Source: a bacterium (Candidatus Blackallbacteria) CG13_big_fil_rev_8_21_14_2_50_49_14
Lineage (GTDB): Bacteria; Cyanobacteriota; Sericytochromatia; UBA7694
Assembly (NCBI GenBank): GCA_002783405.1
Contig: PFGG01000064.1
Location: forward strand, 124,001 to 188,000
Reading direction: 5' to 3'
Length of the DNA stretch: 64,000 bases
The translations under genes were made by a program, and so were the position numbers. The notes beneath the pieces are model-generated. The model was not told the DNA's origin. It saw only the letters and a list, made by a program, of their open reading frames with translations, and did not search any database. Shown one piece after another: positions 38,700 through 44,404 of this stretch (positions within the stretch are counted from its first letter, which is position 1; every line of letters begins with the position of its first letter).

Positions 38700-39506
38700 T
38701 CAGTGAGCTTTGAGGGTAGAGGCTCCTGAAACTTGGGAGCTGATCTGAGGAGAACCTGCATATTCCATAGCGGAAGCATCGCTCAAATTCACATCCAGGC
38801 GTCGGTTCACTGTCAGACTGGCTTTGCTGGCTTTTTCAAGTTTGAGGGTCGCTTCGCCCACGATCAGGTTTAAGGCTGAAATACGACTGGCTCCAACACC
38901 ACTCAAATTCAGGCTTTCGAGGGTACCATAGGCGGTTAAACTGGTTGCGTCTGAGAGCTTTGCCTCAAAACTCCCGATATTCATGGAGCGAATTTCAATC
39001 ACCGCAGCATTGCCTGCTGTGAGTTTAAAGCTTGAGCAGTTGGGGTTCGAAAGCAAAACCTCTGCCGGTGCCGTAATCTCCATGCTCAGGGGCTCTTTGC
39101 CTGACAGGCCGAGCATCGAGAATTTGGCGGGGGCCGAAATCTGCACGTCACTCAAAGCAGGCCCTTTAAGTATCATTTTACTTTGCGTGGCCGTATTGTA
39201 GCTTTGGGCCAGTTTGATCAGCAGGCGGTTATTGCTCACGCTGGTTTGAATCAGGGGCAAAATATTCGCATCGGCATGGATGCTTAAACCTTTATCGGAA
39301 TCTGATTGCGTATACTCGATTTCAATCGGAGCTTGAATATCCAGATTCTCAAATTTTCCATCGAGGGGACGTTCTTCGACTTGAATATTGCCGTCTCCTT
39401 TCAAAGGGTTGACCAGGCTGTTGACCAGTGGGCTGATATCGAGTTTTTCGCAACCACTGAGCAGCAGTCCTGCACTGGCGCAAACTATCAGGGCTTGTTT
39501 TTTCAT
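38700..39506 (-). CDS. DUF2807 (head-GIN) lipoprotein
   Basis: A 268-residue predicted lipoprotein with a signal ending in LLLSGC (Cys19). The body is the DUF2807 beta-helix: repeats of short strands and turns (FENLDIQAPIEIEYTQSD, LKGPALSDVQISAPAKFSM, FEAKLSDATSLTAYG), with ALSDV and VGAS-type turns. Such proteins lie at the cell surface or in the periplasm and have no known enzymatic role. They may act as adhesins or sensors. The start overlaps the epimerase stop by 4 bases (ATGA), so it is co-translated with the SDR and epimerase genes. That is surprising company for a surface protein. Confidence 0.82.
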   Translation of the reverse strand: MKKQALIVCASAGLLLSGCEKLDISPLVNSLVNPLKGDGNIQVEERPLDGKFENLDIQAPIEIEYTQSDSDKGLSIHADANILPLIQTSVSNNRLLIKLAQSYNTATQSKMILKGPALSDVQISAPAKFSMLGLSGKEPLSMEITAPAEVLLSNPNCSSFKLTAGNAAVIEIRSMNIGSFEAKLSDATSLTAYGTLESLNLSGVGASRISALNLIVGEATLKLEKASKASLTVNRRLDVNLSDASAMEYAGSPQISSQVSGASTLKAH

Positions 39507-39961
39507 GACTTTGTCTCCGGCATGTCTTCGCTGAGTTCCAGTAAAATTCCCCCGGTGGCTTTGGGGTGAACAAAAGCGATGCGTTTGTGGTTGGCGCCAG
39601 GTTTGGGCACTTTATCAATCAACTGTACTCCGGCTGCCTCCAATTTTTCGAGCAATTCTGGCAGCCCCTGTACTTTCAAGCAAACATGATGAATTCCAGG
39701 GCCACGCTTTTCGAGGGCTTTGGCAATCGGGCTCTCGTCTGAAGTGGGTTCAAGCAGTTCCAAATGGCATTCACCCGTGTTCAGAAAGGCGACCTTTACT
39801 TTTTCAGTGGGCACTTCTTCGCTTTTGAGGACTTCCAGACCCATCAGGCTTTGCCAGAAAGGCAGGGCCTGCTCCAGGCTTTTGACTGCGACGCCAATAT
39901 GGTCAAGACGAAACCCCTGCAGTGCTTCCGGCAGATCCAGGGGCAAAGGTGATGAACTCAT
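39503..39961 (-). CDS. mce: Methylmalonyl-CoA epimerase
   Basis: A 152-residue cytoplasmic metalloenzyme of the glyoxalase/VOC fold. It interconverts the (S) and (R) forms of methylmalonyl-CoA in propionate use. Motifs: LDHIGVAVKSLEQALPFW with the first metal His, the middle ECHLELLEP, GPGIHHVCLKV with the second His, and GILLELSE with the Glu ligand. Residue spacing and length match the family. The selected ATG overlaps the SDR stop (ATGA) and has GGGAG upstream. The frame extends 18 bases further to a GTG without support. It lies between an SDR gene and a DUF2807 lipoprotein, not next to a mutase in this window. Confidence 0.88.
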   Translation of the reverse strand: MSSSPLPLDLPEALQGFRLDHIGVAVKSLEQALPFWQSLMGLEVLKSEEVPTEKVKVAFLNTGECHLELLEPTSDESPIAKALEKRGPGIHHVCLKVQGLPELLEKLEAAGVQLIDKVPKPGANHKRIAFVHPKATGGILLELSEDMPETKS

Positions 39962-40785
39962 GATTTTGCGTGCTCCCACATCTCATTCAGATCAGGCATT
40001 TCGCTGCCGGGAACACAGGCATACTGCTCAAAATCGGTGACCCCCGCCCCGCGCAGGAGCGGTTCATCGAGCAAGGCCTGGCCTGAATAGGTCAGGGGAT
40101 CTTGGCTGACAATTTCGAGCACGGCGTCGGCCATAATGCTGGCCTTGCGCCAGAGTTTGCGATCTCCCAGCCCCCAGTTGATGGTGGCCTGACTTTCAAT
40201 CAAGGTAACAGGCCAGAGCGAGCAGGCGCCAATGCCATGTTCCCGCATCTCTTCTGCCAGACCCAGGGCCAACATGGTCATGCCGTATTTGCTGATCATA
40301 TAGGCAATGCGGTTGGGCACATGATCCAGATCAATCGGGGGTGACATATTGATAATCATGCCGCTTTTCTGGGCGATCATGCTGGGAAGCACGGCCTGGG
40401 CCGCAAAGAAAGAGGCACGGGCATTGATATCCATGACCAGATCAAAGCGTTTGGGAGGGGTTTCCATTAGGGGACGCCACCAGAGGGCACCCGCATTGTT
40501 GATTAAAATATCAATCCGACCAAAGGTGGCTTGAGTCTTCTCTACCATGGCCTGAATGTCTTCGAGTTCACGCACATTGCATTGAACAGGCAGGGCTTTG
40601 ACGCCCAGGGCTTCGATTTCTTCAGCCACAGTGTAAATCGTGCCAGGCAATTTGGGGTCAGGCTCAGCTGTTTTGCCGGTTACCACGATATTGCAGCCTT
40701 CTTTGGCCAGGGTCAGTGCGATTTCACGGCCGATGCCACGGGTGCTGCCGGTAATGATCGCGACTTTGTCTTGCAGTTTTTTCAT
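39958..40785 (-). CDS. Short-chain dehydrogenase/reductase, HSDL2-like
   Basis: A 275-residue SDR. TGSTRGIGREIAL is the NAD(P)-binding T-G-x3-G-x-G motif, NNAGAL and NMSPPID the following strands, and Y-M-I-S-K (AYMISKYGMTM) the catalytic Tyr-x3-Lys. The Ser is replaced by Pro/Ile next to NMS, as in the HSDL2-like group, whose members have no firm substrate but are often linked to lipid or acyl metabolism. It starts the operon SDR-mce-DUF2807, with a 210-base upstream region shared with the divergent Trp-repeat gene. That region probably holds both promoters; I see no other feature in it. Confidence 0.88.
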   Translation of the reverse strand: MKKLQDKVAIITGSTRGIGREIALTLAKEGCNIVVTGKTAEPDPKLPGTIYTVAEEIEALGVKALPVQCNVRELEDIQAMVEKTQATFGRIDILINNAGALWWRPLMETPPKRFDLVMDINARASFFAAQAVLPSMIAQKSGMIINMSPPIDLDHVPNRIAYMISKYGMTMLALGLAEEMREHGIGACSLWPVTLIESQATINWGLGDRKLWRKASIMADAVLEIVSQDPLTYSGQALLDEPLLRGAGVTDFEQYACVPGSEMPDLNEMWEHAKS

Positions 40786-40995
40786 TTACGCCTCATCTTG
40801 AGCTTTGAGCATGATTTTAGAGTGAGTGCATTATACCGCAGACCGTTCCGTTCAGCGTTATTCTTCGGTACCCTAAAATTGGCTGGCTGTGATAAAGTAT
40901 TTACTACTCACAAAGCATTCCCTTCACGATTTTTGCTGAAAACGAAGTCTTTTATCAAAAATAATCACTTAATTGATTGCTAAGGAGACTCCACC

Positions 40996-41661
40996 ATGAA
41001 CAAAACTTTTGCTGGCCTCTTGCTTTATCTCTGGCTGTCTAACAGTGCCTGTGCCCAAATCCAGCCTGAACCGCAGACCCTTCCCATGAAATCCTCACCG
41101 CAGGCAGTGGCTATACCAACGAACTCCCAAGCGCAGGTTGTTCTCGCCGAATCTCCCTATCAGCTGGCAGAAAAAATCAATTCCTTTGAATTCACACGTT
41201 TAAAAGCCAGCTGGTCAGATCAATGGAATGCCTGGGACATCAATGGCAGCAAAGGCTCACTGAAGGCCGATTGGTCAGATAAAATCTCTGGCTGGTCTTA
41301 TCGTTTGCCGACAGGGAAAGGCGAGATAGATGCCGACTGGTCAGATCAATGGAATGCCTGGACCTTAAAAGCAGGCTCCAAACGTATCCGTATCAAAGCC
41401 AATTGGTCGGACAAATGGAATGATTGGGAGATTTCTGGGCCCAATGGCAAATTAAGGGTCAAAGCCAATTGGTCGGATAAATGGAACGATTGGAATATCT
41501 CGGGCTCAACTGGAAGCATGCGTGTGAAAGCCAATTGGTCAGATCAATGGAATGATTGGAATATCAGCGACAGCATGAAAGGCGAAGATCCTGATCTGAA
41601 AATGGCTGCTGTTTTTGCCTGTATGATCGGGGCTTATGTGGCCAACCATGCCAGCAAATAA
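40996..41661 (+). CDS. Secreted protein with six Trp-Ser-Asp repeats
   Basis: A 221-residue protein of no family that I recognise. Residues 1-20 form a signal peptide (LLLYLWLSNSACA, cleavage after Ala-Cys-Ala). Residues 25-65 are a Gln/Pro/Ser linker. Residues 70-191 are six copies of a 20-23 residue unit whose core is K-A-x-W-S-D-x-W-N-x-W, followed by x-I-x-G-x-x-G-x-x-R/K. Regular Trp placement suggests a beta-repeat that could bind sugar or cell wall, like choline- or glucan-binding repeats, but this is inference. The C-terminus is a short hydrophobic stretch (MAAVFACMIGAYVANHA). The start has TAAGGAG seven bases upstream. It is monocistronic with a hairpin 100 bases after the stop. Confidence 0.75.
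   Translation: MNKTFAGLLLYLWLSNSACAQIQPEPQTLPMKSSPQAVAIPTNSQAQVVLAESPYQLAEKINSFEFTRLKASWSDQWNAWDINGSKGSLKADWSDKISGWSYRLPTGKGEIDADWSDQWNAWTLKAGSKRIRIKANWSDKWNDWEISGPNGKLRVKANWSDKWNDWNISGSTGSMRVKANWSDQWNDWNISDSMKGEDPDLKMAAVFACMIGAYVANHASK
41203..41568 (+). repeat. In-frame tandem repeat encoding WSD units
   Basis: Six direct copies of about 60-69 bases within the secreted protein gene. The core ANWSD(K/Q)WNDW is most alike in copies 4-6, with near-identical DNA (AATTGGTCGGATAAATGGAA and variants). Copies 1-3 are more diverged, so the array seems to grow or be homogenised at its 3' end. Confidence 0.85.
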
Positions 41662-41763
41662 AGCATAAACGAAGCTTGTTGAACGTATATTCAAAATTTG
41701 ACCCTTGGTTCAGCCCTCAAATGATTCAGGGCCTTTGGCTTTGCTTGAGCTTGATGGCGTGAC

Positions 41764-41792
41764 TCACTGTCCCCAAAAGGGGGGGGCAGTGA
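41764..41792. terminator. Bidirectional hairpin between converging genes
   Basis: TCACTGTCCCC and its complement GGGG-x-CAGTGA form an 11-base stem with one G:T pair and an A/G-rich loop. It sits between the Trp-repeat gene and the converging gene at 41800. No strong T-run follows, so I call it a probable terminator. Confidence 0.5.
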
Positions 41793-41799
41793 CGGAGCT

Positions 41800-42645
41800 T
41801 CACTCGATAAGTTCAAAGATACCGTGGCTGAATTCGGAGATGGGTTTTAGAAGCAAAATCTGTTTCGATTGCCAGGACAAATATTCATAAAACAGAGCTG
41901 GATCACGGGGATCTTTCCACCTCAAATCTTTCAGGGCAAGTTTGCCTTGATCTGTTTTTGCGATCAGTTTTCCCGCTTTTAAACATTCAGATAAATTGGC
42001 GAGTTCAAGCCAACTCAGGCCCTTTTGTGATGTTTTATAGCGGGGCTCATAGTTGACTGATACAGGAAATTTTAAGCTCTGTCTAAAAAGTGAGTGCCAG
42101 GTTTTCAGACTTTTTTCTTCTACTTTTGCATCTGCATCCCATTCAGGGCGAATACCCTCCAACCAGGGTTGGTATTTTCGGCCAATGACCTCCATCAAAA
42201 CAGCTTGTTCTGTTTTCCTGAACAGAGCATAGGATGTAAATAGATCTCTTTCAGCCTGGCTTTGAGAACCCTGGGATTTGCAAAAGCAGGCGAAGGCGAT
42301 AATCCCCCTATAGTTTGGATCCCAAGCACTGACATAATCCAACTCAAAAAATGCTTGTTCAGGATCCCATTGGCTGCGATTCACCTTATCGGGTTGATCC
42401 AGTTCAGAACTTTGAAAATAGGCATTCAGATCCGGTGTTTCCAATTCTGAATAAAGTAACCGCGCTTGTACTGCATCATTTGCTTCATCATTCCAGAATT
42501 GCCCCAAGAGCATGAGCACCGAGTTTAGCTTTGGATCTTGTTTGAAGTTATACTCAATCTCAGGAAATACATCTTCTTTTAATATTTGCATACGCAAAGC
42601 TGAAGCGACTTTCAGATAGGGTTGTTCGACAGTTCCAAATGGCAT
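41800..42645 (-). CDS. Hypothetical protein, partner of the TIM-barrel gene
   Basis: A 281-residue cytoplasmic protein not recognised. It has no signal peptide, membrane helix or known motif. Residues 30-80 and 130-170 are helical. ELDYVSAWDPNYRGIIAFACFC and WLELANLSECLKAGKL are the most ordered parts. The ATG shares one base with the stop of the TIM-barrel gene upstream (TGATG), so the two are translated together and probably act in one pathway. I preferred this start to a 37-codon longer frame that runs inside the neighbour. Confidence 0.6.
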   Translation of the reverse strand: MPFGTVEQPYLKVASALRMQILKEDVFPEIEYNFKQDPKLNSVLMLLGQFWNDEANDAVQARLLYSELETPDLNAYFQSSELDQPDKVNRSQWDPEQAFFELDYVSAWDPNYRGIIAFACFCKSQGSQSQAERDLFTSYALFRKTEQAVLMEVIGRKYQPWLEGIRPEWDADAKVEEKSLKTWHSLFRQSLKFPVSVNYEPRYKTSQKGLSWLELANLSECLKAGKLIAKTDQGKLALKDLRWKDPRDPALFYEYLSWQSKQILLLKPISEFSHGIFELIE

Positions 42646-43334
42646 CAATTTTCCCCCCGAATCAAATGAAGTTGTGCCTCTCGCTCTGCAGTGCTCAAGC
42701 TGTGAAAATAGGCCTCTAAAACCAGCGGAATTTCTTGCCCCCGTTCCAGAGCCCAATCCAGGCCAAAGCTCTGCCGCTGCAAAGGGCGGTGACTGTCGTG
42801 CCTGCCATTGTTTTCTGAAAGATGTATTTCGCTGATCGCTTCATAGGCCTGAAGCCGTTTCAGGGTTTGATCTTTCAATACGCCCTGGCAGAGCTGAAGA
42901 TGAAGGTGAGAGATATCTACCGCCAGTTTCAGCCCCAAATCCATGGCCAATTCCAATTCCTGGCCTGTTCCAAGCAAGTAACCTGGGTACATGCTTTCGA
43001 GAATCGGTTGAACATCAGGATTTGCTTCAACGCTTTGCCACCAAATCGTTGCACAGGGGTCGTGAGTTTGGGGGGGATGTACTGAATCTGATGAAACACG
43101 GCAGCGGCCTTGACCGTTCCAGACAGGCTGACGCAAGGCCTGCCAGCAGAAACCATGATGTTTCAATATTGGCAAACCCTGAATATCAAGCCAGTCTGCG
43201 AAGTTTGTGGTGGGCGCATTGCCAGGGGTTAGTTGCAGACCCGCTGGAGAAAGCTGTAGCAATTCTTCGGCGGCAGCCTGCATTGGGCGACCCTGCAAAC
43301 AACTCAAGGCAAGAAACAGATGGGGCGGTGACAT
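42645..43334 (-). CDS. Xylose-isomerase-like TIM-barrel protein
   Basis: A 229-residue protein with the pattern of AP_endonuclease_2 / sugar-phosphate isomerase barrels. LAVDISHLHLQLC is a strand with a metal-type Asp/His, EIHLSENNGRHDSHRPL is the H-x-x-x-N-x-G-x-x-D-x-H motif that binds metal in this family, and IPLVLEAYF is the last strand with its Glu. The barrel is shorter than usual (the family is about 260-290), with weak N-terminal strands, so it may be a divergent isomerase, epimerase or metal-dependent enzyme. It is coupled to the unknown gene at 41800-42645. The substrate cannot be told. Confidence 0.6.
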   Translation of the reverse strand: MSPPHLFLALSCLQGRPMQAAAEELLQLSPAGLQLTPGNAPTTNFADWLDIQGLPILKHHGFCWQALRQPVWNGQGRCRVSSDSVHPPQTHDPCATIWWQSVEANPDVQPILESMYPGYLLGTGQELELAMDLGLKLAVDISHLHLQLCQGVLKDQTLKRLQAYEAISEIHLSENNGRHDSHRPLQRQSFGLDWALERGQEIPLVLEAYFHSLSTAEREAQLHLIRGEN

Positions 43335-43456
43335 GAAGTGCTCCAGCTTTGGCGTTGCTAATGATTATATAGATTGAAAACCCATATTTCAAGCGGTTGA
43401 AAGTCCCGCTATCTGCTAAACTGAAAGACAGTCCAGAATATTTTTGCGGAGCGTTC

Positions 43457-44404
43457 ATGAATTCAATTCCCCCTTTTTGTTTGGTTTTTCCGGGTCAGGG
43501 CTCTCAGGCCCTGGGCATGGGGCAATCCTATTCCAAATTTCCGGTGTATCAGCAAATCATGGCCCAAAGCGAAGCGATATTGGGGTTTCCTTTCAAGCAA
43601 ATCCTCGCTGAAGGCCCGCTTGAAACCCTGACCCGTACTGAATTTGCACAGCCGGCACTCTTTGCCGTGGGATATGGCATTTTCAAAGTGCTTGAAACGG
43701 AATTTGACGTTTTGCCTCAAGCCGTTGCGGGTCACAGTCTGGGCGAATATACCGCTTTGGCTGCTGCTGAAGTACTCGGGTTTGAAGCTGCTTTGCAACT
43801 GGTGGCGCTGCGGGGCCAACTCATGCAGGCGGCCTGTGAACAAAACCCTGGCGCAATGGTGGCCGTGGTCAAGGCTGAACTGCCTCAAATTGAGACGCTC
43901 CTGGCCGATCCCAGATGGCAAAACCAAGTGGGAATTGGCAATTATAACAGCCCCGGCCAATGTGTCCTTTCGGGTGAAAAAGCCGCGCTCGAAGCCCTGG
44001 CTGCAGAAATTCGCATGCAAAAATGGGGGCGGGCTGTGCCGCTGAAGGTCAGTGGAGCTTTTCATTCCCCCTTGATGTCAGAAGCTCAAAAGCGCTTGAG
44101 TCAGGCGATTGAAGCGCTTTCATTTCAGCCTGCCCGTTTTCCGGTGGTCACCAATCTGGATGGTGAGATGACCACCGAACCTGAGGCTTTCCGGCAAAAA
44201 CTGCTCACGCACCTACTCTCTCCTGTTCGCTGGGAAGCCAGTGTGCGCAGTCTTGCGCAATTTTCTTCCCTGATGCTGGAAGCCGGGCCGGGCTCTGTCC
44301 TTTCAGGCCTGATACGCCAAACCCTGCCAGATGTTCAGACCCATTCCCTGGCAGAGGCTAATTTGCTGACTGAACTCAATTTTTCGGAGGCTTCACATGT
44401 CTGA
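43457..44404 (+). CDS. fabD: Malonyl-CoA:ACP transacylase
   Basis: A 315-residue cytoplasmic enzyme that loads malonyl groups on acyl carrier protein for fatty acid synthesis. Motifs: FPGQGSQALGMG near the start, AGHSLGEYTALAAA with the nucleophilic Ser, QNPGAMVAVV with the malonyl-carboxylate region, and SGAFHSPLM with the catalytic His. The usual R in the loop before the C-terminus (V-R-W) is present. GGAG lies five bases before this ATG; the frame extends 20 codons upstream without a ribosome site. It overlaps the aldehyde dehydrogenase gene by 8 bases. No other fab gene is near, so it is separated from the usual fab cluster. Confidence 0.93.
   Translation: MNSIPPFCLVFPGQGSQALGMGQSYSKFPVYQQIMAQSEAILGFPFKQILAEGPLETLTRTEFAQPALFAVGYGIFKVLETEFDVLPQAVAGHSLGEYTALAAAEVLGFEAALQLVALRGQLMQAACEQNPGAMVAVVKAELPQIETLLADPRWQNQVGIGNYNSPGQCVLSGEKAALEALAAEIRMQKWGRAVPLKVSGAFHSPLMSEAQKRLSQAIEALSFQPARFPVVTNLDGEMTTEPEAFRQKLLTHLLSPVRWEASVRSLAQFSSLMLEAGPGSVLSGLIRQTLPDVQTHSLAEANLLTELNFSEASHV

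Follow-up and report, generated by a model that had tools for sequence, protein, structure and literature searches.

The open reading frame at 40996-41661 of the window (the whole 64,000-nucleotide stretch of DNA analysed here) is a real gene. Sequence comparison places its product in an uncurated family of secreted proteins of about 190 residues, to which it appears to be related over its full length and unit for unit. We think it probable that this is a Sec-secreted, single-domain barrel of six hairpins, resembling a six-fold beta-flower or Tubby-like barrel and perhaps contacting a lipid or polymer of the cell envelope. The protein would be exported via Sec, and its six tandem 22-residue beta-hairpins would close into one soluble twelve-stranded barrel that surrounds the protein's own hydrophobic C-terminal helix as a plug. 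An exposed aromatic and charged surface could then hold membrane lipid or a cell-envelope polymer, as in Tubby-like proteins. Neither Pfam nor NCBIfam, in the copies searched, contains an entry for the family, although it is present in two phyla of bacteria; its fold is apparently one that was recognised not long ago among predicted structures. It is thus a new sequence family with respect to those copies, built on a known architecture and ordinary in kind.

An earlier note on this DNA had described an unrecognised secreted protein with six Trp-Ser-Asp units, and this description holds. The reading frame, the six motifs and the repeat signal were all found, the protein begins with an apparent signal peptide, and among the libraries searched NCBIfam gave no match and the PDB none by sequence, so that we know of no solved relative. 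The layout of the gene is given in Table 1. The Q at the likely signal peptide cut is kept at the same place across the family, as an invariant Q20 in the alignment of 22 relatives from Bacteroidota. The linker that follows is longer than in relatives and mostly of low confidence in the AlphaFold2 model. Unit 2, which departs from the other units, has a counterpart of similar form, W-x-Y-R-[IL], in unit 2 of the relatives. The C-terminal helix carries an LKxAAxFxC motif that is conserved in the closer of two subfamilies of relatives.

Table 1. Features of the gene and its surroundings, in positions of the window; residue numbers are those of the encoded protein.
Feature	Coordinates	Strand	Basis
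CDS, secreted protein with predicted six-hairpin barrel (P0001), 221 aa	40996-41661	+	ORF call and homologues
AAGGAG ribosome-binding site, 8 nt upstream of ATG	40982-40987	+	read from sequence
Signal peptide, residues 1-20, likely cut between ACA and Q	40996-41055	+	sequence
Linker, residues 21-66	41056-41193	+	model and alignment of relatives
Unit 1, residues 67-86, 20 aa	41194-41253	+	
Unit 2, residues 87-108, atypical WSYRLPTGKG	41254-41319	+	
Unit 3, residues 109-130	41320-41385	+	
Unit 4, residues 131-152	41386-41451	+	
Unit 5, residues 153-174	41452-41517	+	
Unit 6, residues 175-196	41518-41583	+	
Hydrophobic C-terminal helix, residues 199-218, proposed barrel plug	41590-41649	+	model, alignment
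Codon-sharing stretch, W-S-D-Q-W-N core of unit 1	41212-41235	+	codon test
Codon-sharing stretch, W-S-D-Q-W-N core of unit 3	41338-41361	+	codon test
Codon-sharing stretch, W-S-D-Q-W-N core of unit 6	41536-41559	+	codon test
Short-chain dehydrogenase	39961-40785		window neighbour
Gene without Pfam match at E 0.001	41803-42756	-	Pfam search
Gene without Pfam match at E 0.001	42648-43334	-	Pfam search

The unit had been called very regular, and this is true of the repeat signal and less so of the motif. Residues 67-196 contain 49 same-residue matches at lags of 20-24, far above chance (mean 12.3 and maximum 23 in 5000 shuffles), and TRF reports a 66-nt period at 41393-41565. The full string K-A-x-W-S-D-x-W-N-x-W, however, is complete in four of the six units (unit 2 has no W-N and unit 3 has D in place of K), and G-x-x-G follows it in three (units 1, 4 and 5). 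The six W-S-D motifs lie at residues 73, 93, 115, 137, 159 and 181. Their spacing is therefore 20 and then four times 22, not the 21 residues given earlier.

The last three copies had also been considered nearly identical in DNA, a sign of recent homogenisation. Their identity is in fact 73% between units 4 and 5, 70% between units 5 and 6, and 64% between units 4 and 6. At positions where the amino acid is the same, the frequency of identical codons in these pairs does not exceed the expectation from codon usage (p = 0.56, 0.26 and 0.23, respectively), which leaves homogenisation of these copies without support. Excess codon sharing was found elsewhere, in three of the 15 unit pairs tested: units 1 and 6 use identical codons at 9 of 9 positions (equalled in 0 of 20,000 codon-usage simulations), units 1 and 3 at 6 of 6 (p = 0.003), and units 3 and 6 at 6 of 6 (p = 0.008); the pair 1-6 alone comfortably survives correction. 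These three units are not adjacent, and their identical codons perhaps reflect gene conversion between copies. Since the sharing above expectation is between units 1, 3 and 6, any exchange between copies would have concerned those units.

Relatives were sought with a two-unit DNA pattern, which matched at least 120 loci in the GTDB collection. Among 120 matches listed, 27 carry the family, as secreted reading frames of about 180-200 aa with W-x5-[DE]-W units, a few of them clipped by contig or locus ends. Those of the 27 whose taxonomy was checked are Saprospiraceae or other Bacteroidota. A profile built from 22 of the 27 loci (leaving out the clipped L212, L220 and L243, L260 as a near-duplicate of L251, and L279) recovers the window gene, with an E-value of 5.6e-24, as its sole match in 146 genomes of the window organism's kin. 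In hhalign, the window protein and the Bacteroidota family align over 146 columns (E = 4.5e-18), each of the six units pairing with its counterpart and the C-terminal segments likewise. Members of this Saprospiraceae type (e.g. L183 and L200) share with the window protein the six units, a signal peptide ending in AQ, a C-terminal KMAxxF segment and homology over the full length. They differ in sequence, with 20-25% identity, and mostly have F, P or L in place of the middle Trp.

Counting the genome at the centre of each survey, the family was found in 5 of 345 genomes of one phylum and in 7 of 119 genomes of one order. A locus from these surveys, L288, led to a second subfamily with 24-residue units, FSGDDAWKDWRI, which occurs in 13 of 44 genomes of the order of L288, its own included; nine of the 13 members went into a profile. 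This FSGDDAWKDW subfamily (L288, L292-L303) lies closest to the window protein: no other members compared scored as well in BLASTP (69 bits, E = 2e-19), identity is 27-32% over the alignment, and the LKxAAxFxC helix is shared, the alignment ending in LKMAAVFAC and LKFAAIFAC. It differs from the window protein in that almost all of its hairpins are two residues longer and Phe or Tyr takes the place of the first Trp.

To tell homology from mere likeness of repeats, the six units of the window protein were permuted through all 720 orders. Under the Saprospiraceae profile the true order ranks first of 720, at 85.5 bits against a mean of 48.4 (sd 15.1); under the second-subfamily profile it ranks fifth of 720, at 70.6 bits, where the best order reaches 72.7. 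The highest scores among 200 shuffles of the residues were 5.4 and 14.4 bits under the two profiles, respectively. As the true order is best under the Saprospiraceae profile, the units correspond one to one with at least the first subfamily. That the window protein is homologous to the family is close to certain.

Among curated families, the sole Pfam match above cut-off is DUF7300 (PF23974), on which a literature search found no publication. The window protein scores 27.3 bits, just over the cut-off of 27, and a three-unit fragment 30.1, as a member of that family might. The score is, however, summed over three to four stretches (four for the window protein), the best of which covers 15-18 of 65 model positions (18 for the window protein), and at a single place it falls to 13.1 bits. 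None of 292 genomes passes the cut-off; 1 of the 22 relatives matches (E = 0.0077) and the protein P0002 does not. Membership in DUF7300 is hardly credible on these figures. Other searches gave PHROG 4445 at E = 0.0034 and, for 7 of the 22 relatives, DUF7145 (best E = 0.0018), and Rfam gave no match in 39000-43500 of the window.

AlphaFold2 predicts twelve short antiparallel strands for the window protein, two per unit, followed by the helix at residues 199-218. The model has a pLDDT of 83.7 and a pTM of 0.72; between residues 81 and 210, the pLDDT averaged in ten-residue blocks is 86-97. A Saprospiraceae member is modelled likewise with twelve strands and a helix (pLDDT 92.9, pTM 0.86), both models being built on the same 27 sequences. 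With Foldseek alone, neither model had a match at E ≤ 0.001, the best E-values being 0.055 and 0.042. VIA-align, a re-ranking of Foldseek's top 1000 only, places tubby-like barrels first for both. For the window model these are the LURP-one-related AT5G01750 (Z = 10.6, rmsd 3.3, 134 residues aligned), tubby (9.9) and TULP1 (9.6 and 9.2), with the next hit at 5.2; for the second model, six tubby-like chains run from Z = 11.2 (AT5G01750) to 9.5, with the next hit at 5.8. Over the two models, tubby and TULP1 span Z = 9.2-10.6. According to the tool's own note, models without a clear match typically have a best Z of 7-8, and we regard the ranking as good but not conclusive evidence.

Several details of the models bear on how such a barrel could be built. 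Strands in the window model are 4-9 residues long, hydrophobic and polar faces alternate along them in the sequence and the DSSP assignment, the core of the helix is hydrophobic, and the tubby alignment extends to residues 211-218. From DSSP, the alternation and this alignment, we infer that the barrel closes and buries the helix. The first and last Trp of W-SDxWN-x-W would lie on the hydrophobic Ile/Val/Ala face and pack on the helix, and the middle Trp would sit close to the hairpin tip among the Lys, Arg, Asp and Glu of the polar face. Taken together, the models make a barrel fold very likely.

In the beta-flower description (Durairaj et al. 2023, PMC10584680), 4, 5 or 6 hairpin petals make up barrels of 8, 10 or 12 strands, which are short and antiparallel; many of these barrels enclose a C-terminal hydrophobic helix faced by aromatics at the strand edges. 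The hairpin tip carries a semiconserved [DNEQ]xxG; the families (PF21784, PF21785 and PF21786) are placed with Tubby in clan CL0395, and circular permutation is described as separating them from Tubby (PMC10584680). The window protein is likewise a small bacterial hairpin barrel by prediction, with the twelve strands of the six-fold form and the C-terminal hydrophobic helix. Matches to [DNEQ]xxG occur in three of its six units (DING 81-84, EISG 145-148 and NISG 167-170), and its Trp residues would be the counterpart of the inward-facing edge aromatics. In contrast to beta-flowers, its units carry W-SDxWN-x-W, its signal peptide looks like type I and not that of a lipoprotein, and it has a long N-terminal linker. 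None of the three Pfam models matched it at E up to 10, nor did they match the 22 relatives or P0002. A PF21786 search of 99 genomes found three proteins above cut-off, and one such Bflower_3 protein (L304) had no profile similarity to the window family. As modelled, then, the window protein fits the six-fold beta-flower description closely and stands outside the current Pfam families.

The models also resemble the Tubby C-terminal domain, TULP1 and AT5G01750 (1c8z, 2fim and 1zxu), which have twelve strands and a helix and align at Z = 9.2-11.2 over 134-153 residues. Sequence identity to these proteins is 5-10%; in the window protein both strands and turns are shorter, and repeats can be seen in the sequence. 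The compared proteins are eukaryotic and mostly intracellular. The Pfam models Tub, Scramblase and LOR did not match the window protein at E up to 10. A bolder extension of the comparison would make this a secreted bacterial Tubby-like barrel whose hairpins are still recognisable copies, with the twelve-stranded Tubby/scramblase barrel having originated from a single hairpin amplified six-fold, and with such barrels binding lipid or surfaces outside the cell. This extension is something of a long shot. With its plain sequence repeats, the protein offers a good case for studying the evolution of Tubby-like barrels out of hairpins; being small and secreted, it would also suit structure determination of a six-fold, beta-flower-like barrel in which the repeats can still be seen.

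Other architectures could be proposed for six tandem hairpins. The earlier note suggested a new glycan- or wall-binding repeat. Secretion, the wealth of aromatics and tandem units of about 20 residues would all suit a string of modules like choline- or glucan-binding repeats, each holding one sugar unit. Copy number drifts in arrays of binding repeats, whereas the aligned relatives keep six copies in conserved order together with the C-terminal segment. Pfam gave no match to such a family at E up to 10, choline- and glucan-binding repeats included, and the structure predictions assemble the six units into one compact, barrel-like domain, not a string of modules. A module string is accordingly improbable; it is possible that the finished barrel, if it forms as predicted, binds a glycan. 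An open single-layer sheet of hairpins, as in OspA or MORN proteins, carrying the helix against one of its faces, is somewhat easier to entertain but still unlikely. Among Foldseek's weak matches are junctophilin, MORN1, OspA mutants and Rhs/teneurin repeats, and the closer-subfamily profile matches L308 at E = 1.9e-5. L308 is a MORN-variant-like repeat protein outside the family, and the match may reflect a common hairpin or composition alone. Against an open sheet, the unit number is constant at six, and such folds appear in VIA-align at Z of 5.2 or less with rmsd of 5.5 or more, compared with Z of 9-11 at 3.1-3.8 for tubby-like chains.

The signal peptide and twelve antiparallel strands could also recall a porin-like outer-membrane beta-barrel, and the porin-like protein 4ghb does appear in VIA-align at Z = 5.1-5.2 with both models. 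Tubby-like chains score twice as high, however, the strands have just 4-9 residues, and a hydrophobic C-terminal helix is present. In addition, the face of Arg, Lys, Asn, Asp and Glu opposite the Ile, Val, Ala and Trp face is wrong for a wall in contact with lipid. We consider a porin-like barrel very improbable.

For the preferred soluble, plugged barrel, a role in binding lipid or an envelope polymer as a soluble envelope protein is a tentative suggestion, made by analogy. The window neighbours, which include an acyl transferase in addition to the genes in Table 1, are uninformative on function, and the gene at 41803-42756, downstream of the CDS, was not found in the other four genomes of the organism's family. 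Genes next to the relatives are conserved in place and look like housekeeping genes, which points to vertical inheritance in the relatives' group rather than to a pathway. The gene just upstream in 12 of 26 relative loci is one we take to be DUF3127-like. A protein of DUF2807 (putative auto-transporter adhesin, head GIN domain) is encoded 1.5 kb from the CDS, at 38703-39506 on the minus strand.

No relative of the window gene was found in the searched genomes of its own genus, family, order and class, so its distribution looks patchy; horizontal transfer is possible. In a search of 59 relatives with the window protein, two matched: the window gene itself and a WD40-repeat protein (L002, E = 7.5e-4) that we attribute to chance. 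Pattern searches with P0001 in genome contigs, and with A1 and L288 in viral contigs, gave matches and no confirmed relative; tblastn found none in plasmids and, in phages, three weak Roseovarius phage matches at E = 2 or worse. Matches listed for a loose two-unit DNA pattern in viral contigs look like chance or tandem-repeat DNA, and one cyanobacterial pattern match lies within tandem-repeat DNA. The remaining matches listed among the 120 loci include Sphingobacteriia proteins (presumably isoleucyl-tRNA-synthetase-like, as named from their sequence), miscellaneous chance matches and a CRISPR-like array at three loci. This very long array belongs to Candidatus Tyloplasma litorale AP027078 (L170, L186 and L228) and combines a constant 36-nt repeat with spacers of about 30 nt in a 66-nt period. 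Its three 8-kb loci gave 57, 45 and 18 pattern matches, 120 in all, and every match covers two repeats.
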